From assembly GCF_001580915.1 (NCBI RefSeq), contig NZ_LHZQ01000216.1, forward strand, positions 1-64,000: DNA of 64,000 nt. Reading direction: 5' to 3'. This document shows, piece after piece, positions 54,645 to 64,000 of the stretch. The notes beneath the pieces were generated by a model. The model did not search any database. It saw only the letters and a list, made by a program, of their open reading frames with translations, and was not told the DNA's origin. The position numbers and the translations under genes were made by a program. Within the stretch, counting starts at the first letter, position 1. The number at the start of each line of letters is the position of its first letter. Source of the stretch: Acetobacter tropicalis (lineage in GTDB: Bacteria; Pseudomonadota; Alphaproteobacteria; Acetobacterales; Acetobacteraceae).

Positions 54645-55019
54645 TTCACGACCTTCCGCCTATGTTGATTATTATCCGCACGGAGTTGTCTTACATATGG
54701 ATTGGCAATTTCTGCTTGTACTCAGCGCATACTAACGGCGCTTTGCTCCAGACTTGAAAAAGGAGCAGCGACATGTGCTGTCGAGCCTTATACGCTTGGT
54801 GAAAACGGAAGTTCCCCGGAGAAAAGACAGCAGGAGTTCACAGTAAGCCTTCTTCGCCATCCCGTAGTTGCGGAACTGGTGAATCGTTGTGGAAAACGAA
54901 GAGCAAAAAACAGTAGGGAGAAGATGCGTCTCTCTCCGCTTACAGGCGTTGTTCTGTTGATAAAGGTGCTCTTTCTTTGCGCTTTTAACTTAGTTCATCA
55001 TCATGAAAGGGAAAAGCCC
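54645..55019. other. Divergent intergenic region, nuoA / short-chain dehydrogenase
   Basis: 375 bases that must hold the nuo promoter. The dehydrogenase reading frame stays open through it back to 54702, but the translation shows no family resemblance, so I treat it as noncoding. AAGGGA at 55007-55012 serves the dehydrogenase. I see no convincing riboswitch or terminator. Confidence 0.5.
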
Positions 55020-55784
55020 ATGGGCCGCGTGGACGGGAAAGTTGCCATTGTGAGTGGGGCTGCACTTGGTATTGGTAAAGCTGCAGCACTCCTTCTGGCG
55101 CAGGAAGGAGCCTCAGTTATTGTCGGTGATATTAATAAAGAGGAAGGACAGAAAACAGTTTCTGAAATTGAGGGGAAGGGTGGAAAGGCATTTTTCCTCC
55201 TCCTTGATGTGCGGAAGGAAGAAGACTGGAAATCCGTGATCGAGGGGGCTTTGTCCCGTTTCGGGCGGCTTGATATCATGGTGAATAATGCTGGCATTGC
55301 CTACAGTGGTTCCGTGGAAAGCACTACGCTGGAAGACTGGCGGCGAGTGCAATCAATTAATCTGGATGGTGTTTTTCTGGGTACGAAATATGCCATTGAG
55401 GGGATACGGCAACATGGTGCAGGCGGATCTATTATCAATCTTTCTTCAATTGAAGGGCTGATTGGTGACCCTGAACTCGCAGCTTATAATGCCAGCAAAG
55501 GCGGAGTGCGTATTTTTACAAAATCCTCAGCATTACATTGTGCAAAAGCGGGATATAAAATTCGGGTTAATTCCGTTCACCCGGGGTATATCTGGACGCC
55601 CATGGTGGCTGGCCTGACACAGGAAGATGAGGCAGCGCGCAAGAGGCTGGTTGATCTTCATCCTATTGGGCATCTGGGTGAACCTGACGATATTGCTTAT
55701 GGTATTCTTTACCTCGCTTCCGACGAATCAAAATTCGTCACGGGGAGCGAGTTGGTAATAGATGGCGGCTACACAGCGCAATAG
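55020..55784 (+). CDS. Short-chain dehydrogenase/reductase (SDR)
   Basis: A 254-residue classical SDR: NAD(P)-binding SGAALGIGKAAALLLAQEG, NNAGIAYSG, the catalytic Ser in INLSSIEGLIG, Tyr-x3-Lys in YNASKGG, and a C-terminal GSELVIDGGYTAQ. An aspartate at the end of the second strand (VGDINKEE) suggests NAD rather than NADP. The sequence resembles R-specific alcohol/cyclohexanol dehydrogenases and glucose 1-dehydrogenase-like SDRs; the substrate is not determinable. ATG 55020 is chosen because AAGGGA precedes it and the Rossmann fold starts there. Confidence 0.9.
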   Translation: MGRVDGKVAIVSGAALGIGKAAALLLAQEGASVIVGDINKEEGQKTVSEIEGKGGKAFFLLLDVRKEEDWKSVIEGALSRFGRLDIMVNNAGIAYSGSVESTTLEDWRRVQSINLDGVFLGTKYAIEGIRQHGAGGSIINLSSIEGLIGDPELAAYNASKGGVRIFTKSSALHCAKAGYKIRVNSVHPGYIWTPMVAGLTQEDEAARKRLVDLHPIGHLGEPDDIAYGILYLASDESKFVTGSELVIDGGYTAQ

Positions 55785-55910
55785 CCTGTTAGGGCAAAAA
55801 CAATACGCAGGGTTTATCCCGAATACTATTCTAATATTTCAGGGGAATAGGTGAGCGGAGGATGATCTGGCCACATTCCCCCCCCATTTTCTTTGCAGAG
55901 GCTTATCAGG

Positions 55911-58442
55911 ATGTCCACCTTACCCAATGGCCTGACAGATGCAGAAGCCAGAAAGCGATTACGTGAGGAAGGGCCGAATGATCTGGCGCGTTCAGGCAAT
56001 AGGTCGCGTTGGCGGGTGGTACTGGGTGTTCTGAAAGAACCTTTATTTCTGATGCTGTTGGGGGCTGGAGGAATTTATATTGCGCTGGGAGACTGGCATG
56101 AGGCTTTGCTGCTTGTTTCTCTGGGGTCTGCGTCTGTTTTTATTACGGTGGTGCAGGAAGTCAGGAGTGAACGGGTTCTTGATGCGCTACGTGACCTCAC
56201 CAGTCCCCGTGTCCTTGTTGTGCGAGACGGAACACAGCAGAGAATTGCGGGTAAGGACGTCGTGCGTGGAGACTGGATTGTTCTTGGAGAAGGGGATCGT
56301 GTGGCTGCGGATGCTCTGGTACGATCTGAAAACTCGTTGGAAGCAGATGAATCGTTACTGACTGGCGAATCTGTGCCTGTTCGTAAAAGTGCGGTTGAAA
56401 CGTATCCGGAACCACAGTCCCCCGGTGGAGATGAGAGCCCTTTTCTGTATGCCGGTAGCCTGATTGTGCGTGGGCAGGGAATGGCGGAAGTAACCGCAAC
56501 GGGGGCGCGGAGCGAAATAGGGCGCATAGGGGTGGCGCTGGAAAATATCCAGAGTGAAGCGCCGCATCTGGCGCGACAGACGGCAAGGCTGGTCAAGGTT
56601 TTGGCGCTGGTGGGGGTTGGAACCAGCGCTATCTTTGTGGTGCTGCACGGACTGATACGTGGCGGGTGGATGACGGCTTTTCTGGGGGGGATAGCCTTAA
56701 GTATGGCTCTTTTGCCAGAAGAATTCCCGCTTGTTCTGGCAGTCTTCCTGGTGATGGGGGCGTGGCGCATTACTCGGGCAGGTGTTCTTACCCGGCGCGC
56801 AGCAGCTATTGAGAGTCTTGGGTCTGCAACGGTTTTGTGTACGGATAAAACAGGCACACTGACGGAAAACCGTATGACAGTTACCGAAATTCAGACTGAC
56901 GCGGGAGGTATGATTGATGTGCGAAGTTCTGATCCATCTTCTCTGGATGGCACTGTAACACGCATCATTCATGTTGGACGGTATGCGTGTCAGCCTGATC
57001 CGTTTGATCCAATGGAAAAGGCATTTCATGAGATTTCCCGACATGAACAAGGACAAGAGAAACCGCTGAGTGTTGACCTTGTCCGGGATTATCCGTTTGG
57101 GGACGAAGTGTTGGCTATGGCCAATGTCTGGAAGCTGGAAAATGGTCGGCTTCTTGTTGCCAGTAAAGGCGCGCCTGAAGCGGTGATGGAGCTCTCCCAT
57201 CTCGGGTCTGATGCGCGCGCAGCATGGCGCAGGAAGGTGGATGAGATGGCTGCCCGTGGTCTGCGTGTTCTTGCCGTAGCAGAAGCCTTGCATGAGGAAG
57301 AAAAGCCTCTGCCGGAAGCACAATCCGGATTTTCTTTCACGTTCCTCGGTCTTGTGGGGCTGACGGACCCCCTGCGCGCCAATGTGAGAGATGCTATTGC
57401 GGAATGTAAAACTGCTGGAATTCGTGTTGTCATGATCACGGGAGATTATCCGCTGACAGCGCAAGCTATTGCCAGAGAGGCAGGAATACGGGCTGAGAAG
57501 GTTCTAACGGGGGCAGACCTTGAAGATACAAGTGGGCTACCGTTATCGGACCGCGTGAAAGACATTGATGTTTTTGCCCGCATTCGACCCGCGCAGAAAC
57601 TGGAGATTGTGCAGGCCTTGCAAAGTAATGGTGATGTTGTTGCCATGACGGGTGATGGCGTGAATGATGCCCCAGCCCTGAAGGCCGCCCAGATTGGTAT
57701 TGCCATGGGGCAGAGAGGCAGCGATGTGGCACGTGAAGCCAGTGCAATTGTACTCCTGAATGATGACTTCAGTTCTATTGTAAAAACCATACGCCTTGGA
57801 CGCAGGATTTATGATAATCTGCACAAAGCCATGGGATTTATTTTGGCGGCCCATGTGCCTATAGCTGGTTTGGCCATTATTCCCCTGTTTTCAGGTCTGC
57901 CTCTTATTCTTCTTCCTGCGCATATCGCTTTTCTTGAAATTGTTGTCGATCCTATCTGCTCTATCGCGTTTGAGGCGGAGCCTGAGGAGGCCGATCTGAT
58001 GGTGCGGCCACCGCGTGACTCTTACCGGCCGTTGTTTTCTGGCTCACTTATGCTCTGGAGTGGAGTGCAGGGAGGTATAGTCCTCATAGCCCTGTGTCTG
58101 GTTCTGTTTATGGGGACATGGCGGGGAATGGCAGAAGAAACGCTGCGCTCTCTGGTATTTGTAACCCTTATGCTGGGGGATGTTGTTCTTGTTCTGGTAA
58201 ACCGCTCCTTTGATACCTCTCCCTTCCGTGCTTTGGTCCGACCTAATCCTGTTTTGTGGGGTGTGCTTGCCTTTGATGCCGTGTTGCTGACTTTAATTCT
58301 GAGTTTTTCACCAACACGCAATCTTTTCCGATTGGGGAGCGTTACTTTGCGTGATGTGGGAATTTGCATTTTTGTCAGTCTGATTGCTTTACTGATTATG
58401 GAGTTTATGAAGCGGTTTTGGCAGGCTTCCTTGAAGAATTAG
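55911..58442 (+). CDS. Cation-translocating P-type ATPase
   Basis: An 843-residue P-type ATPase with the P2-type layout: N-terminal cation ATPase domain (GLTDAEARKRLREEGPNDLA), actuator TGES motif (LLTGESVPVRKS), phosphorylation site DKTGTLT at Asp312, KGAPEAVMEL in the nucleotide domain, and hinge MTGDGVNDAPALKAAQIGIAMG. The fourth membrane helix reads PEEFP (269-273) where Ca2+ pumps have PEGLP. Two helices near the C-terminus contain EIVVDPICSIAFEAEPEEAD. It belongs to a bacterial group whose ion is not established; Ca2+, Mg2+, Mn2+ or H+ are possible. ATG 55911 is preferred to an in-frame TTG at 55893. It starts 126 bases after the SDR on the same strand. Confidence 0.92.
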   Translation: MSTLPNGLTDAEARKRLREEGPNDLARSGNRSRWRVVLGVLKEPLFLMLLGAGGIYIALGDWHEALLLVSLGSASVFITVVQEVRSERVLDALRDLTSPRVLVVRDGTQQRIAGKDVVRGDWIVLGEGDRVAADALVRSENSLEADESLLTGESVPVRKSAVETYPEPQSPGGDESPFLYAGSLIVRGQGMAEVTATGARSEIGRIGVALENIQSEAPHLARQTARLVKVLALVGVGTSAIFVVLHGLIRGGWMTAFLGGIALSMALLPEEFPLVLAVFLVMGAWRITRAGVLTRRAAAIESLGSATVLCTDKTGTLTENRMTVTEIQTDAGGMIDVRSSDPSSLDGTVTRIIHVGRYACQPDPFDPMEKAFHEISRHEQGQEKPLSVDLVRDYPFGDEVLAMANVWKLENGRLLVASKGAPEAVMELSHLGSDARAAWRRKVDEMAARGLRVLAVAEALHEEEKPLPEAQSGFSFTFLGLVGLTDPLRANVRDAIAECKTAGIRVVMITGDYPLTAQAIAREAGIRAEKVLTGADLEDTSGLPLSDRVKDIDVFARIRPAQKLEIVQALQSNGDVVAMTGDGVNDAPALKAAQIGIAMGQRGSDVAREASAIVLLNDDFSSIVKTIRLGRRIYDNLHKAMGFILAAHVPIAGLAIIPLFSGLPLILLPAHIAFLEIVVDPICSIAFEAEPEEADLMVRPPRDSYRPLFSGSLMLWSGVQGGIVLIALCLVLFMGTWRGMAEETLRSLVFVTLMLGDVVLVLVNRSFDTSPFRALVRPNPVLWGVLAFDAVLLTLILSFSPTRNLFRLGSVTLRDVGICIFVSLIALLIMEFMKRFWQASLKN

Positions 58443-58727: not shown

Positions 58728-60227
58728 ATGACTACGAACACTCAAAAGCTTTCTTTGCCCGAAAACCCACGTCACTTCGGGTTGTATATCAATGGTCGTT
58801 GGGTTGAGACTGCTGGCCGCAAAGTTATGGAACGCTATAGCCCTGCGCATGGCGTTCTTGTGACGAAAACAACCGGTGGCACGGAAAAGGATGTTAATGA
58901 GGCTGTTGCCGTAGCCAGAAAGGCATTTGAGAACCGCAGTTGGGCAGGATTATCCGGCCAACAGCGTGCGGATGTGCTTTTGAAGGCGGCAAATCTTATT
59001 CGGGATCGTGCGGAAGAACTGGCGGTGCTGGAAACTCTGGAAACAGGCAAGCCCATCACACAGTCCCGTGGGGAAATTCAGGCCAGTGCTGGTATTTACG
59101 AGTACGCAGCCGGGGCGGCCCGCATGTTGCATGGCGACAGCTTTAATAACCTTGGTGATAACGTGTTTGGGCTTGTCACCAGAGAGCCGATTGGTGTGGT
59201 TGGGCTGATTACACCGTGGAACTTCCCTTTTTTCATTCTCTCGGAGCGTCTACCCTTCATTCTGGCATCAGGCTGTACGGTTGTTGCGAAGCCGAGTGAT
59301 CTGACATCCGCCACAACTTTGATCATGGCCGAAATCCTTACACAGGCAGGCCTGCCAGATGGGGTATTCAATGTAGTGACGGGTGCTGGAAGTGTGGTGG
59401 GGGAGGTGCTCTCACATCATCCAGATATTGATATGCTGTCTTTCACGGGCTCGACATCTGTTGGCAAGCGGGTTCTGGCTGCGTCCGCTGGGAACTTCAA
59501 AAAACTAAGCCTGGAGCTTGGTGGGAAAAATCCGCATGTCGTATTTGCCGATGCACGGCTTGAAGAGGCCGTGGATGGCGTGATCTTTGGCTTCTGTTTT
59601 AATGCAGGGCAATGTTGTGTGGGTGGAAGCCGGCTGCTTGTTGAAAAATCCATTCAGGCAGAGTTTGAACATCTTCTCGTTGAAAAGCTTGGGCGTTTGC
59701 GTGTGGGAGATCCGCTGGACCCAGAAACGCAGGTTGGCGCAATTGTTAGTGACAAGCAACACGAAACGATTTGTGACTATATTGAACGTGGCACAAAACA
59801 GGGCGCACGTTTACTGACACAGGGAAGTGTTAGCACAACCGTTAAGGGACTGTTTGTTCAACCAACCATTTTCTCTGACGTTACGTCTGAGATGGATATT
59901 GCAACAGACGAAATTTTTGGGCCTGTTCTGAGTATATTGCCGTTTGAAACGGTAAATGAGGCGATTACCATAGCGAATACGACCATTTACGGGCTTTCAG
60001 CGACAATCTGGACCCAGAATCTCTCTCATGCCATGGATGCAGTAAGAGGTATCCGTGCGGGCCGTGTGTGGGTTAATACCACTATTTCTGGTGGACCAGA
60101 GCTGCCGGCTGGTGGGTTCAAGCAATCAGGCATTGGCCGGGAGACCGGCATTTACGGTGTAGAGGAATATACCGAAATCAAAGCGACGCACATTGCCTTT
60201 GGTCCTCGTACCCCTTGGGTGTCGTGA
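58728..60227 (+). CDS. Aldehyde dehydrogenase, L-sorbosone-dehydrogenase-like
   Basis: A 499-residue NAD(P)-dependent aldehyde dehydrogenase. The catalytic residues are Glu263 (LELGGKNPH) and Cys297 (GQCCVGG); the cofactor loop is GSTSVGKRVL and ITPWNFPFF is present. Length and linkage to a GMC oxidoreductase of 531 residues directly downstream recall the sndh-sdh pair of Gluconobacter oxydans, in which the aldehyde dehydrogenase converts L-sorbosone to 2-keto-L-gulonate. That substrate is inference from size, order and family; betaine-aldehyde-type activity is the alternative. AGGGCGG precedes the ATG, and the stop overlaps the next start (TGATG). Confidence 0.9.
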   Translation: MTTNTQKLSLPENPRHFGLYINGRWVETAGRKVMERYSPAHGVLVTKTTGGTEKDVNEAVAVARKAFENRSWAGLSGQQRADVLLKAANLIRDRAEELAVLETLETGKPITQSRGEIQASAGIYEYAAGAARMLHGDSFNNLGDNVFGLVTREPIGVVGLITPWNFPFFILSERLPFILASGCTVVAKPSDLTSATTLIMAEILTQAGLPDGVFNVVTGAGSVVGEVLSHHPDIDMLSFTGSTSVGKRVLAASAGNFKKLSLELGGKNPHVVFADARLEEAVDGVIFGFCFNAGQCCVGGSRLLVEKSIQAEFEHLLVEKLGRLRVGDPLDPETQVGAIVSDKQHETICDYIERGTKQGARLLTQGSVSTTVKGLFVQPTIFSDVTSEMDIATDEIFGPVLSILPFETVNEAITIANTTIYGLSATIWTQNLSHAMDAVRGIRAGRVWVNTTISGGPELPAGGFKQSGIGRETGIYGVEEYTEIKATHIAFGPRTPWVS

Positions 60228-61822
60228 TGTCGGCTGGTTATGACTTCATTATTGTGGGGGGCGGCACAGCTGGGTGCGTGCTGGCCAACCGGCTGAGTCA
60301 AAATCCTAGTGCGCGGGTATTGCTTCTGGAAGCAGGAAAAGCCGACAATCATCCGTTTATTCACATGCCCATAGGGTTTGCGAAAATGACAGGTGGTCCT
60401 TACACGTGGGGTTTTCACACTGTACCACAGGTACACGCACAAAACCGTAGAATCCCCTATGTGCAGGCGCGTGTGCTGGGGGGCGGAAGCTCTATCAATG
60501 CTGAAGTTTTTACACGAGGCGTTGCACAAGATTACGATCGATGGGCTAATGAGGAGGGATGCGCAGGTTGGTCTGCCAAGGATGTGCAGCCGTATTTTCT
60601 CCGGTCCGAAGGAAAAGAGTTCTTTGCCACAAAATATCATGGCACGGATGGCCCTTTAGGCGTATCCAGCATTGCGGCGCCCATGCCGGTAACGCGGGCG
60701 TTTGTGCAGGCCTGTCAGCAATATGGCATTCCTTATAATCCGGATTTTAACGGTGCATTGCAGGCAGGAGCAGGAGTTTATCAAACAACCACCCGGAATG
60801 CGCGGCGATGTTCTACGGCTGTGGGGTATTTGCGGCCCGTAATCAAGCGTCCTAATTTGCAAGTGGAAACCAACTGTTTAACCACCCGTGTCCTTTTTTC
60901 AAATAACAGGACAAGCGGTGTGGAGTACATCCAAAAGGGCAAGAAACACGTCGCGTATGCCGATGCAGAAGTTATTATTACTGCGGGGGCCATAGGTTCT
61001 CCCAAGATCATGATGCTCTCTGGTATTGGGCCTTCGGCTCATTTGAAAGATCATGGCATACCTGTTGTTGCTGACCTGCCCGGTGTTGGGAGCAACCTGA
61101 GCGATCACTATGGCATTGATATCGTCTATGAACTTAAAAATCCGATAAGCCTTGATCGTTACAATAAAGCTCACATGATGATGTGGGCTGGTTTACAATA
61201 TCTTCTGTTCAAATCCGGACCAGTGACATCCAATGTGGTCGAAGGGGGCGCATTTTGGCACTCTGATAGCCAGGAGAGTGTGCCTGACCTGCAATTCCAC
61301 TTTCTGGCAGGGGCAGGAGTAGAGGCGGGTGTGCCCAATATACCCTCTGGTTCTGGCTGCACGCTGAATTCTTATGTGTTGCGCCCCAAGAGTAGGGGAA
61401 CCGTCCGGCTGAACAGTGCGAACCCTGAAGATCGTGTTCTGGTTGATCCGAATTTTCTAGCAGAGCCTGAAGATGTGCGCAGTTCCGTGGAAGGGGTGCG
61501 CATCAGCCGTGAGATCATGAGTCAGCCGAATATGCAGAAGCATGTCAAACGGGCTCATTTTCCGGATAATACAGTAAAAACTCGAGAAGATCTGGTTCGC
61601 TACGCACGGCAGTATGGCAGAACATCTTACCATCCCAATGGAACCTGCAAAATGGGGACGGATGAGATGGCTGTTGTTGATCCGAGCCTGAAAGTGCGGG
61701 GAGTTGACGGGTTGAGGATTTGTGATTCCTCAGTCCTTCCTAGCCTTATCGGCTCCAATACAAATGCTGTTACTGTAATGATATCAGAAAAAGCAAGTGA
61801 TATCATTTCTTCTTCTTACTAA
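60227..61822 (+). CDS. GMC-family FAD oxidoreductase, L-sorbose/choline-dehydrogenase-like
   Basis: A 531-residue glucose-methanol-choline oxidoreductase. FAD-binding GGGTAGCVLANRLS lies at 11-24, the GMC signature at VLGGGSSINAEVFTRG, and the catalytic His469 (HPNGTCKMG) and Asn513 (GSNTNA) near the C-terminus, matching the His-Asn pair of the family. It has no signal peptide, so it acts in the cytoplasm or at its membrane face. It would oxidise an alcohol to the aldehyde used by the upstream dehydrogenase; L-sorbose to L-sorbosone is the most attractive pairing. Start by one-base stop/start overlap. Confidence 0.9.
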   Translation: MSAGYDFIIVGGGTAGCVLANRLSQNPSARVLLLEAGKADNHPFIHMPIGFAKMTGGPYTWGFHTVPQVHAQNRRIPYVQARVLGGGSSINAEVFTRGVAQDYDRWANEEGCAGWSAKDVQPYFLRSEGKEFFATKYHGTDGPLGVSSIAAPMPVTRAFVQACQQYGIPYNPDFNGALQAGAGVYQTTTRNARRCSTAVGYLRPVIKRPNLQVETNCLTTRVLFSNNRTSGVEYIQKGKKHVAYADAEVIITAGAIGSPKIMMLSGIGPSAHLKDHGIPVVADLPGVGSNLSDHYGIDIVYELKNPISLDRYNKAHMMMWAGLQYLLFKSGPVTSNVVEGGAFWHSDSQESVPDLQFHFLAGAGVEAGVPNIPSGSGCTLNSYVLRPKSRGTVRLNSANPEDRVLVDPNFLAEPEDVRSSVEGVRISREIMSQPNMQKHVKRAHFPDNTVKTREDLVRYARQYGRTSYHPNGTCKMGTDEMAVVDPSLKVRGVDGLRICDSSVLPSLIGSNTNAVTVMISEKASDIISSSY

Positions 61823-61843
61823 AAATCATTCGTATATATTAAA

Positions 61844-61873
61844 GCAGAAATGATACCGAAATATCATTTCTGC
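61844..61873. promoter_or_regulatory. Perfect 12-bp inverted repeat upstream of the sugar permease gene
   Basis: GCAGAAATGATA (61844-61855) and TATCATTTCTGC (61862-61873) flank a 6-base loop, 41 bases before the permease ATG. There is no T run. The right arm's TATCATTTCT also occurs at 61801-61810 inside the end of the GMC gene. It may be an operator, an attenuating hairpin or an mRNA processing site between genes. Confidence 0.55.
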
Positions 61874-61914
61874 ACTACCATTGGGTCATGTACATCCGCC
61901 AAAGGAGTGCTGCT

Positions 61915-63192
61915 ATGGAGTGTTCAGTTGCGATAAAGGATAATATGCAAGAGAAATCAGGGGTTTTGGACTTTCTGTCTTTCTCCATGTTTTTCCTGTT
62001 TGGAGGCATTACCAGTCTAAATGATGTGGTTATGCCAAAACTAAAAGAAGTTTTTGACCTGAACTATACTCAGATGACGACTGTTCAGTTCTGTTTTTTT
62101 GCCAGCTATTTCCTTATTTCTATTCCAGCTTCTCATATGATCAAAAAAAATGGTTATATGAGGACTCTTGTTATAGGTCTTATTCTGATCGCATTAGGGT
62201 GTCTGTGCTTTATTCCCGCTACATGGTCAGCGCGCTTTTTGGTTTTTCTGTTAGCTTTGTTTGTGGTGGCGGCGGGTATCACAATTATTCAGGTTACGGC
62301 AAACCCGCTTATCATTTCCCTTAGCAACAAAAGAAATGTCTCATCACGGCTGACATTCGCCCATGCGTGTAATTCACTGGGGACAGTTGTTGCGCCTTAT
62401 CTTGGGGCCATGATTATCTTGCGCCATCACCCAGAAGAGAGTTTTCTGGGAAAGATAGCGGCGTATTTTTCTGCTCAGAACATGTCTGAAGGCGCAATAG
62501 ATATTAGCATCTGTTATCTGATTGTCTCTGTTTTTATTTTCTTTTGGTCATTATTGACCTGGGTAAACCGCAGTAAACTCAAAGATAACTATTTTCATGA
62601 AGGGAGTGTTCTGAAAGCCATTGAGCTATTCAGGGATAAACATTTCAGCTTCGGCGTTGCGGCCATGTTTTTTTATATCGGCGCAGAAGTTACTATTGGG
62701 AGCCTTCTGGTTAATTATCTTGTTTTGCCAGATACGTTACATTTAACATCTGAAGAGGCAGGGAAACATCTTGCCTTTTATTGGGGCGGCCTGCTGTGTG
62801 GACGTTTACTGGGTATTGTGTTCCTACGGGCCATAGCACCTTCCATTCTTTTGGCAGTTTACGGTTCCTTCGCTTTTTTGCTGGTTATTCTCTCCATTGT
62901 GTCAACGGGAAGTGTCGCTGGATGGGCAATGTTGGCGGTTGGGTTGTGTAATTCAGTCATGTTCCCCTTGATTTTTTCACTGACCTCCATGGATCTTGGG
63001 CATCGTGCTTCTGAAGGCTCAGGTTTGATTTGTATGGCGATTGTCGGTGGCGCATTTGTTCCTGTTCTAACAGGACGGTTTGCGGATGTTACCAGCTTAA
63101 ATATTGCGTTCATCATACCGGCGCTTTGTTATCTGGTTGTTATATTTTTCGGAATTTATTCCCGTTATTTTCACCATAAAGTATTTTCCTAA
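61915..63192 (+). CDS. Sugar MFS permease, FucP/GluP (FHS) family
   Basis: A 425-residue, 12-helix major facilitator permease of the fucose/glucose/galactose:H+ symporter family. Family marks are FLFGGITSLNDVVMPKLKEV in helix 1, ITIIQVTANPLI in the first half, FYIGAEVTIGSLLVNYL at the start of the second half, and FPLIFSLTSMDLGHRASEGS. It would bring a hexose or ketose such as L-sorbose to the dehydrogenase pair encoded upstream. ATG 61915 follows AAAGGAG by 7 bases; an earlier in-frame ATG at 61888 has no ribosome site. Confidence 0.9.
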   Translation: MECSVAIKDNMQEKSGVLDFLSFSMFFLFGGITSLNDVVMPKLKEVFDLNYTQMTTVQFCFFASYFLISIPASHMIKKNGYMRTLVIGLILIALGCLCFIPATWSARFLVFLLALFVVAAGITIIQVTANPLIISLSNKRNVSSRLTFAHACNSLGTVVAPYLGAMIILRHHPEESFLGKIAAYFSAQNMSEGAIDISICYLIVSVFIFFWSLLTWVNRSKLKDNYFHEGSVLKAIELFRDKHFSFGVAAMFFYIGAEVTIGSLLVNYLVLPDTLHLTSEEAGKHLAFYWGGLLCGRLLGIVFLRAIAPSILLAVYGSFAFLLVILSIVSTGSVAGWAMLAVGLCNSVMFPLIFSLTSMDLGHRASEGSGLICMAIVGGAFVPVLTGRFADVTSLNIAFIIPALCYLVVIFFGIYSRYFHHKVFS

Positions 63193-63230
63193 GCATAAGC
63201 AGCAGTAAAAAAATAAAAAAGGAAGCTGTC

Positions 63231-64000
63231 ATGTGGGAAATATCTCGTACCGTAAGTGCGGTCGCGTGCCTTGCATTGATACCTGCAGCAAGTGAGGCCC
63301 GCACACGCAGGCCTGAATTGTCAGAATGTTTTGGTGTTGCCATGACTCCATGGGACCCGGATGTTATCTGTGTGAGCAATCCCGATGTGGTGGAGGAAGA
63401 ACTTTCCAACAATGAAGATGATTTCTTTTTCTATGACGACCATCACAATATTATAAGGCGGCCTAGCCGCGTTTCCCGAGTTTTGCGTTCTACACCGCGC
63501 CCGTTATCGCCCAATTGGTTACATCAGGATACCATGACGGGAGATTGGGGCGGACTGCGCACACGTTTGGCCCGCAGGGGCATTTTGTTTCAAGGGCATT
63601 ATGTGCAGGATACTGCCGGGAACCCGGTAGGGGGGAAAGCGCAGGCGGTGCGTTATGCACATGAATTTGCCGGGGGCCTTGATATCGATTTCAGAAAATG
63701 GATTGGATATGATATCGGAATTCTTCACTTTCTGGTCACCCAGCGTTCAGGGTTAGGGCTGCATATGGTTATGCCCGCACTGAGTTCCGTGCAGGAAATT
63801 TACGGAACCGGACAGACGGTGCGTTTGACCAGGCTTTCTCTGGAGCACAAATTTACAAATTACGTGAATACGGAGCTCGGATGGGTCAACACGGAAAATG
63901 ATTTTGCCCAGTCAACAACACACTGGGGGATGTCTATTTACTGCCAGTTTCAGAGCAATGCTATTTGCGGTATGCCGCAGTCGCTCGCTTTCAATTCTGG
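63231..64000 (+). CDS. oprB: Carbohydrate-selective porin OprB, 3'-truncated by the window
   Basis: The first 256 residues of an OprB-family porin; no stop codon before the window ends. A signal peptide (SAVACLALIPAASEA) is followed by about 75 residues of acidic, poorly conserved sequence with two cysteines, then the porin start WLHQDTMTGDWGGLRTRLAR and barrel strands (ELGWVNTENDFAQS). OprB porins admit sugars and polyols through the outer membrane. It starts 38 bases after the permease with GGAAG ahead, so it completes a sugar uptake and oxidation operon. Confidence 0.9.
   Translation, partial: MWEISRTVSAVACLALIPAASEARTRRPELSECFGVAMTPWDPDVICVSNPDVVEEELSNNEDDFFFYDDHHNIIRRPSRVSRVLRSTPRPLSPNWLHQDTMTGDWGGLRTRLARRGILFQGHYVQDTAGNPVGGKAQAVRYAHEFAGGLDIDFRKWIGYDIGILHFLVTQRSGLGLHMVMPALSSVQEIYGTGQTVRLTRLSLEHKFTNYVNTELGWVNTENDFAQSTTHWGMSIYCQFQSNAICGMPQSLAFNS

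Follow-up and report, generated by a model that had tools for sequence, protein, structure and literature searches.

An L-sorbosone/sorbose dehydrogenase-type gene pair of Acetobacter tropicalis, with its permease and porin, as the candidate head of a CoA-dependent catabolic unit

The analysed stretch of Acetobacter tropicalis DNA (hereafter the window, the first 64000 bases of the 84788-base contig NZ_LHZQ01000216.1; window and contig coordinates agree) ends with four genes, which encode an aldehyde dehydrogenase (ALDH) of the L-sorbosone dehydrogenase (SNDH) type, a GMC oxidoreductase of the sorbose dehydrogenase (SDH) type, a sugar-type permease and an OprB porin. An earlier note on this DNA had read them as a self-contained route of import and cytoplasmic oxidation leading to a keto acid such as 2-keto-L-gulonate. 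Our comparison of sequences and gene neighbourhoods pointed to another role. We consider it fairly probable that the four genes serve for import and oxidation at the head of a longer coenzyme A (CoA)-dependent catabolic unit for a polyol or a sugar-like primary alcohol, because CoA-type genes accompany the pair here, around the characterised enzyme kind and in rhizobia. This enzyme kind probably converts L-sorbose to 2-keto-L-gulonate as a side activity rather than as its main task.

Association of the pair with genes of CoA metabolism

The run of genes on the strand of the pair reached the end of a CoA-transferase gene at contig position 72233, its stop at 64000 being the edge of the window only, and a TetR regulator gene follows on that strand. 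It includes genes for an acyl-CoA dehydrogenase (ACAD), a short-chain dehydrogenase/reductase (SDR), a DUF993 protein, a xylose-isomerase-like TIM-barrel protein (TIM) and both subunits of an electron transfer flavoprotein (ETF), and the gaps from ACAD to ETF alpha measure −4 to 8 bases (Table 1). In Acetobacteraceae, 27 of 397 genomes matched the GMC at E 1e-170, and at 25 loci the GMC gene adjoined that of an SNDH-type ALDH (only partly matched in G259; G290, with a 62% GMC, lies outside this set). The stretches examined around these loci (one of at most 20 kb per locus, two for G000, G034 and G032) contained DUF993, SDR and TIM at 24 loci each, ACAD at 23, ETF beta and ETF alpha at 22 each and a glycerate kinase at five. 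OprB of at least 45% identity was found inside the stretch at 13 of the 25 loci, and the permease stood with the pair at three, being absent by threshold from the other 22. At L108, a locus with a near-identical Gluconobacter-type pair, the two genes were followed by CoA-transferase, a MOFRL glycerate kinase, ACAD, SDR, DUF993, TIM and the ETFs. The view of the earlier note that the route is self-contained was not supported, as the pair is tied to ACAD, ETF, CoA-transferase, SDR, DUF993 and TIM across loci.

Two loci appear to be decayed or rearranged versions: L112 has SDR–DUF993–TIM without an ACAD or ETF match, and at L120 the ALDH is matched only in part and is accompanied solely by GMC, CoA-transferase, TetR and a Zn-alcohol dehydrogenase. 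Ten further loci (L121–L130), several of them on short contigs, lie outside the 25 and carry a GMC of 54–61% identity with no SNDH match in the stretch. Eight of them showed at most isolated weak matches to the other cluster genes. The remaining two, L121 and L122 (GMC 59–61%), have portions of the CoA cluster; an SNDH-type ALDH is therefore not required for the GMC to stay with some of these genes.

A similar association was found outside the family, where 20 loci were compared: 17 of 47 ALDH loci (48–68% identity) and three plasmid loci. The rest of the 47 comprised two records counted with the family loci (A. senegalensis and A. pomorum) and 28 distant ones (31–41%) that were left out. A sugar binding protein and an ABC ATPase were present at 17 of the 20 loci; CoA-transferase, enoyl-CoA hydratase, a Zn-alcohol dehydrogenase and each of two aldo/keto reductases at 15 each; ACAD, SDR and DUF993 at 14 each, the stretches often ending early; and glycerate kinase at eight. 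Annotated examples are those of Sinorhizobium meliloti R28 pSymA, Rhizobium sp. TH2 pTH2c and Sagittula sp. MA-2 p7. The GMC of L030 (Rhizobium sp. RCAM05350 plasmid) is broken and was not counted; the ALDH, GMC, TetR and CoA-transferase matches of this locus are fragmented, as if by decay or by many frameshift errors in the record.

A four-gene unit on two CoA backgrounds

ALDH, GMC, permease and porin were found together in three genomes, standing before the ACAD block in G000 and G034 and after it in G032. Between G000 and G032 the identities were 82% for ALDH, 85% for GMC, 77% for the permease and 74% for the porin, against 65–72% for the proteins from SDR to CoA-transferase, and the latter group of G032 was 77–91% identical to that of G017. 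ACAD, with 88–97% in all Acetobacteraceae pairs compared, discriminates little. Since the identities of the cassette differ from those of the SDR-to-CoA-transferase genes and the G032 block is nearer to that of G017, the cassette seems to have been transferred as a whole to different CoA blocks. The earlier grouping of permease and porin with the pair has thus held, as a four-gene unit in three genomes and on two backgrounds. The unit looks like an exchangeable head on two versions of the CoA genes, which may be the reason why the pair has a permease and a porin of its own.

The change of order and the unequal identities would also suit two independent neighbours sharing a genomic island, namely a sugar-alcohol cassette and a separate short-chain acyl-CoA or sugar operon. 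The same is true of the 13 of 25 family loci where ACAD or the SDR–DUF993–TIM block lies on the strand opposite to the pair, and of the 20 of 25 class-level DUF993 loci that have DUF993 and TIM without CoA-transferase or ACAD matches. Nevertheless, we regard this explanation as rather unlikely, as the link persists through re-ordering, strand changes and great distance, and the co-occurrence in the genus is complete. A GMC of this kind (at least 61%) is present in 11 of 49 genomes of the genus, and DUF993 in the same 11, related genomes being weighted equally; such a perfect match has a chance probability of 3.4e-11 if the genomes are taken as independent and relatedness is ignored.

DUF993 itself was found in 25 of 289 genomes of the class. 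Among the 25 class-level loci besides that of the window, a TIM match occurred in 22, and three (L157, L161 and L162) had several cluster companions. The other 22 had neither CoA-transferase nor ACAD; 13 of these had a TetR-like match and one (L164) a GMC at 39%. At the two loci tested for it (L144 and L152), a Gfo/Idh oxidoreductase frame lies directly upstream of DUF993. DUF993 is therefore also used outside the CoA cluster.

Kinship of the pair with SNDH and SDH

The arrangement described by the earlier note, a 499-residue ALDH overlapping a 531-residue GMC, was confirmed, the junction being TGATG with an overlap of 1 nt. Full-length domains at the scores of Table 1 in four frames are far beyond chance. 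The order, ALDH then GMC, and the sizes are like those of sndh–sdh, as the note had proposed, and the same order was seen at L108; it is presumably also that of strain T-100.

The top PDB match of the ALDH, among the best 60 of 265, was 7W5L, the L-sorbosone dehydrogenase of Gluconobacter oxydans WSH-004 (673.6 bits), followed by 3U4J (523.4 bits), and 298 of 493 residues aligned with SNDH were identical (60%). The catalytic Cys297, the adjoining Cys296 and Glu263 (window numbering) are kept, and Cys297 was present in 45 of 45 aligned sequences. Among the catalytic and cofactor residues of SNDH, Asn163, Arg172, Lys186, Glu262, Gly293, Cys295, Cys296, Glu394 and Glu471 are all kept, which covers Cys295 and the residues named in section 2.1 of PMC10602560. 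Altogether, 15 of the 17 SNDH positions examined were identical. Two residues that this paper places around the cofactor are changed (Glu189 to Asp and Gln224 to Glu), and the tunnel residue Met167, described in the same paper, is Phe in the window ALDH.

For the GMC, no entry bearing the name sorbose dehydrogenase stood among the best 60 of 71 PDB matches, so SDH was reached indirectly. The ALDH of L108 (genome G378) is 98.8% identical to 7W5L, and the L108 GMC has the wild-type residue at 35 of the 36 positions mutated in the SDH of WSH-004 (Table 5 of PMC7092628), where shuffled copies reached at most 11 and a second locus, L110, also scored 35. The window GMC was identical to this SDH-type GMC at 337 of 528 aligned positions (63.8%). 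Of 59 aligned sequences, that of the window among them, all have His469 and 58 have Asn513; we take these two residues to be the catalytic pair. The alignment with the sndh and sdh products that the earlier note had proposed as a check thus gave 60% to SNDH and 64% to the SDH kind, and supported an SNDH/SDH-type pair.

The best NCBIfam names of the two proteins are betaine-aldehyde dehydrogenase and choline dehydrogenase, and they belong to the same superfamilies as the enzymes of choline and polyethylene glycol (PEG) oxidation. However, every curated cut-off of the choline type was missed (BADH, 482.6 against 668.6; betA, 491.4 against 732.1; PRK02106, 568.4 against 605). PDB entries named betaine-aldehyde dehydrogenase reached at most 397.6 bits among the best 60 of 265 ALDH matches, far below SNDH, and a gene annotated betA was only 38.5% identical to the window GMC, as compared with 63.8% for the SDH kind. 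The choline and betaine-aldehyde reading was rejected on these scores, and the closer kinship to SNDH and SDH, on which the earlier proposal depended, was borne out. The peg operon of Sphingopyxis joins an ALDH, a GMC, a permease and acyl-CoA activation in one operon; a GMC on the plasmid of Sphingopyxis macrogoltabida EY-1 is 41.1% identical to the window GMC, but its neighbourhood does not mark it as the PEG enzyme, so this figure gives no direct measure of the distance from PEG enzymes. A role in choline, betaine-aldehyde or PEG oxidation appears very improbable.

Kinship with SNDH is real, yet the window pair seems to be a sister kind. In a tree of 55 ALDH rows (53 matches together with the window and SNDH), the window row grouped with two other Acetobacter rows with a support of 100, and a branch of support 99 set this group apart from 34 rows that include SNDH, Sagittula and the majority of the rhizobial copies. 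The window ALDH is thus not on the same side as the characterised SNDH in this quick tree; on its own side are L016, L134, L060, Caballeronia rows and more distant rows. The tree has SH-aLRT support only. The starting set was 114 stop-free matches with a length of 430 residues or more and an identity of 30% or more, from which duplicates, 100% copies, L081–L106, L001, L006, L014, L015 and L032–L059 except L044, L047 and L058 were left out. The rooting is unsure, because distant rows with long branches join at the base of the window's group, but the split is independent of the root. Because of this branch, the substrate cannot simply be carried over from SNDH.

These results bear on the route of the earlier note, that is, a dedicated import and cytoplasmic oxidation of L-sorbose via L-sorbosone to 2-keto-L-gulonate; on this view the CoA genes would have no connection with it or only a subordinate one. 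The identities of 60% and 64%, the named catalytic residues and the sugar-type permease and porin forming one unit with the pair all agree with it. In addition, a FAD dehydrogenase large subunit encoded just downstream (Table 1) is best like fructose dehydrogenase (606.8 bits to 7W2J). The frame after it has three CxxCH motifs, and the counterparts in G034 are 98% and 88% identical; the two are likely a membrane sugar/polyol dehydrogenase with a cytochrome c subunit, and such an enzyme could supply a ketose made outside the cell. Still, we judge this route unlikely, given the CoA genes that accompany the pair in Acetobacteraceae, in rhizobia and around the characterised kind, and the branch between the window ALDH and SNDH. 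Moreover, from general enzymology a 2-keto acid would be no obvious substrate for a CoA-transferase or an ACAD, and 2-keto-L-gulonate would fit the CoA steps poorly. The linkage and the tree split thus gave no support to 2-keto-L-gulonate as the product.

Catalytic residues and the proposed pathway

In sets of full-length, stop-free matches above the identity threshold, including the window's own, Lys227 of DUF993 was conserved in 61 of 61 aligned sequences, Glu359 of ACAD in 39 of 39, Glu328 of the CoA-transferase in 44 of 44, and Tyr159 with Lys163 of the SDR in 42 of 42. The ACAD, CoA-transferase and SDR residues are presumably catalytic, as in their families. Lys227 of DUF993 lies in a GIK motif, on which ground we propose that it may form a Schiff base in the manner of the lysine of dihydrodipicolinate synthase.

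Gene content and order, their conservation, the presence of the catalytic residues and the kinship with SNDH and SDH were observed directly, while each reaction on the native substrate, the order of the steps and the passage of a single substrate through all of them we infer. A small sugar-like primary alcohol or polyol would enter through the OprB porin and then the GluP/FucP-type symporter. The GMC, as a cytosolic FAD enzyme, would oxidise its CH2OH group to the aldehyde, the ALDH would convert the aldehyde to the acid with NAD(P)+, and the CoA-transferase would form the acyl-CoA. ACAD would take two hydrogens off the alpha–beta carbon pair to give the enoyl-CoA, passing the electrons to the ETF encoded alongside. 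The SDR, the TIM-barrel isomerase and the aldolase-like DUF993 enzyme may then rearrange and cleave the sugar-like carbon skeleton, and the glycerate kinase present in several relatives could feed a C3 fragment back into central metabolism. Regulation probably lies with TetR. Carba-sugars, deoxy sugars, methylerythritol and lignan alcohols were considered as substrates and dropped, as no evidence separates them.

Several observations, besides the divided strands and the putative ketose-supplying enzyme mentioned above, weigh against this pathway. Among the cluster genes scanned there was no enoyl-CoA hydratase, thiolase or glycerate kinase, which makes the path incomplete as drawn; elsewhere in the genome there are one MOFRL kinase and four matches of the enoyl-CoA hydratase (ECH) family, and no genome-wide search for thiolase was made. 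The CoA-transferase was inside the examined stretch at only 14 of the 25 family loci. Outside the family, L029 and L060 have the ALDH but none of the cluster at the thresholds used (weaker CoA-transferase and ECH matches exist in L029 below them), and L027 has one aldo/keto reductase only. The window GMC agrees with SDH at only 11 of the 36 published positions. Finally, L-sorbosone is a substrate of SNDH in vitro, as stated in PMC10602560, and SDH yields 2-keto-L-gulonate from L-sorbose in Escherichia coli, as stated in PMC7092628.

A bolder proposal, which we hold tentatively and at somewhat less than an even chance, is that SDH–SNDH did not evolve for L-sorbose and is the entry of a CoA pathway widespread in acetic acid bacteria and rhizobia, in which a sugar-like alcohol would be oxidised to an acid, bound to CoA, desaturated by ACAD and ETF dedicated to it, and cleaved by a DUF993 lysine aldolase. 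Such a pathway is undescribed in the open-licence literature searched, where no paper on the cluster was found by title or start of abstract and none with the term DUF993; older subscription papers, such as those on the first sdh/sndh cloning cited in PMC8102297, are outside this scope. If the proposal is true, DUF993, still of "unknown function" in Pfam, gains its first reaction. SDH and SNDH are engineered for one-step fermentation of the vitamin C precursor, and in the cited papers their product is 2-keto-L-gulonate. If the pair heads a CoA pathway, its natural substrate is reopened and becomes genetically testable in harmless strains, and many natural relatives are available for enzyme engineering.

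Features of the locus and neighbouring genes

Table 1. Genes of the four-gene set and its surroundings (contig coordinates, identical to window coordinates up to 64000)
Feature	Position	Strand	Remarks
SDR gene upstream of the ATPase	about 55008-55784
P-type cation ATPase	55893-58442		between this SDR gene and ALDH
SNDH-type ALDH, 499 aa	58728-60227	+	Pfam Aldedh 567.1 bits; NAD(P)-dependent by family
SDH-type GMC oxidoreductase, 531 aa, FAD	60227-61822	+	Pfam GMC_oxred_N 172.6 bits, GMC_oxred_C 127.8 bits
GluP/FucP-family major facilitator permease, 425 aa	61915-63192	+	Pfam MFS_1 78.7 bits; NCBIfam gluP
OprB carbohydrate-selective porin	63231-64000 (frame cut by window edge); 63231-64769 on contig	+	Pfam OprB 78 bits inside window
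ACAD	64893-66035	+	same strand as pair
SDR, DUF993, xylose-isomerase-like TIM barrel, ETF beta, ETF alpha	after ACAD, to 70517	same as pair
CoA-transferase	70644-72233	same as pair	126 bases after ETF alpha
TetR regulator	72524-73210		290 bases after CoA-transferase
FAD dehydrogenase large subunit (region)	74072-77009 (L005:172-3109)		fructose dehydrogenase-like

The GMC starts with the ATG given in Table 1, the open reading frame listing also giving an upstream TTG, and the permease has an alternative ATG at 61888. The permease passed the cut-off of the gluP subfamily in NCBIfam (226.1 against 202.55) and failed that of the fucP equivalog (199.6 against 280.4). The earlier note had placed a FucP-type permease and an OprB porin after the pair; both are present, and because of these scores the former is better named a GluP/FucP family permease. 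The whole OprB frame on the contig encodes 512 aa with a hydrophobic, signal-like N-terminus and covers positions 2–372 of the 372 of PF04966 with 289 bits. By crude hydropathy and reading by eye, no leader was visible in ALDH or GMC, and the hydrophobic residues close to the start of the GMC belong to the FAD motif. A cytoplasmic place of both enzymes, and thus the cytoplasmic oxidation suggested earlier, fits this.

Transcript limits were not drawn, since the counts of promoter-like sites (20; shuffled mean 15.9, sd 4.2) and terminator-like sites (19; shuffled mean 18.8, sd 3.7) were close to the shuffled expectation. The G+C content of the four genes (0.48 versus 0.52 in the first 54 kb of the window) is lowered mostly by the permease (0.42) and was not taken as evidence. 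In A. senegalensis (contig L014) only about 450 bases separate the SDR match from that of the ALDH, so the P-type cation ATPase gene was either gained in the window genome or lost in L014.

Comparison with known systems

Degradation of sugar acids as CoA esters to glycerate has a parallel in the deoxyribonate clusters of Price et al. 2019 (PMC6365646), which themselves involve a cleavage that the authors call proposed and not directly shown. The likeness consists of oxidation of a sugar to an acid, a CoA ester formed before or after oxidation, cleavage and a glycerate kinase. On the other hand, its passages on this route name no GMC/SNDH pair, and the terms acyl-CoA dehydrogenase, electron transfer flavoprotein and dihydrodipicolinate have no occurrence in the paper. 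The cluster described here has a CoA-transferase, an ACAD, an SDR and an aldolase-like gene, whereas a thiolase and a glycerate kinase were missing from the cluster genes scanned.

The clusters of R28 pSymA, TH2 pTH2c and MA-2 p7, for which no functional name was found, share with the window locus TetR, ALDH (60–68% identity), GMC (65–69%), CoA-transferase, ACAD, SDR, DUF993 and TIM. The ETFs are present in both Rhizobiaceae records, and the Sagittula record runs out before they would be reached. In contrast to the window, an ABC transporter with a sugar-type binding protein replaces the permease and porin; the binding protein of TH2 is closest to 2RJO (a title without a ligand), then to monosaccharide-, allose- and ribose-binding proteins. 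Further extras are a Zn-alcohol dehydrogenase, aldo/keto reductases and an enoyl-CoA hydratase, with a glycerate kinase in the S. meliloti record.

The closest characterised system is SDH–SNDH of G. oxydans WSH-004 (PDB 7W5K, 7W5L and 7W5N), with which the window pair shares the order ALDH then GMC, similar sizes and the catalytic residues; the Cys-Cys pair of the SNDH redox switch (Cys295–Cys296) is likewise present in the window ALDH. The window pair differs in its place across the branch of support 99, in having its own permease and in the altered cofactor and tunnel positions. At the near-identical Gluconobacter-type locus L108, CoA-type genes follow the pair just as they do at the window locus.

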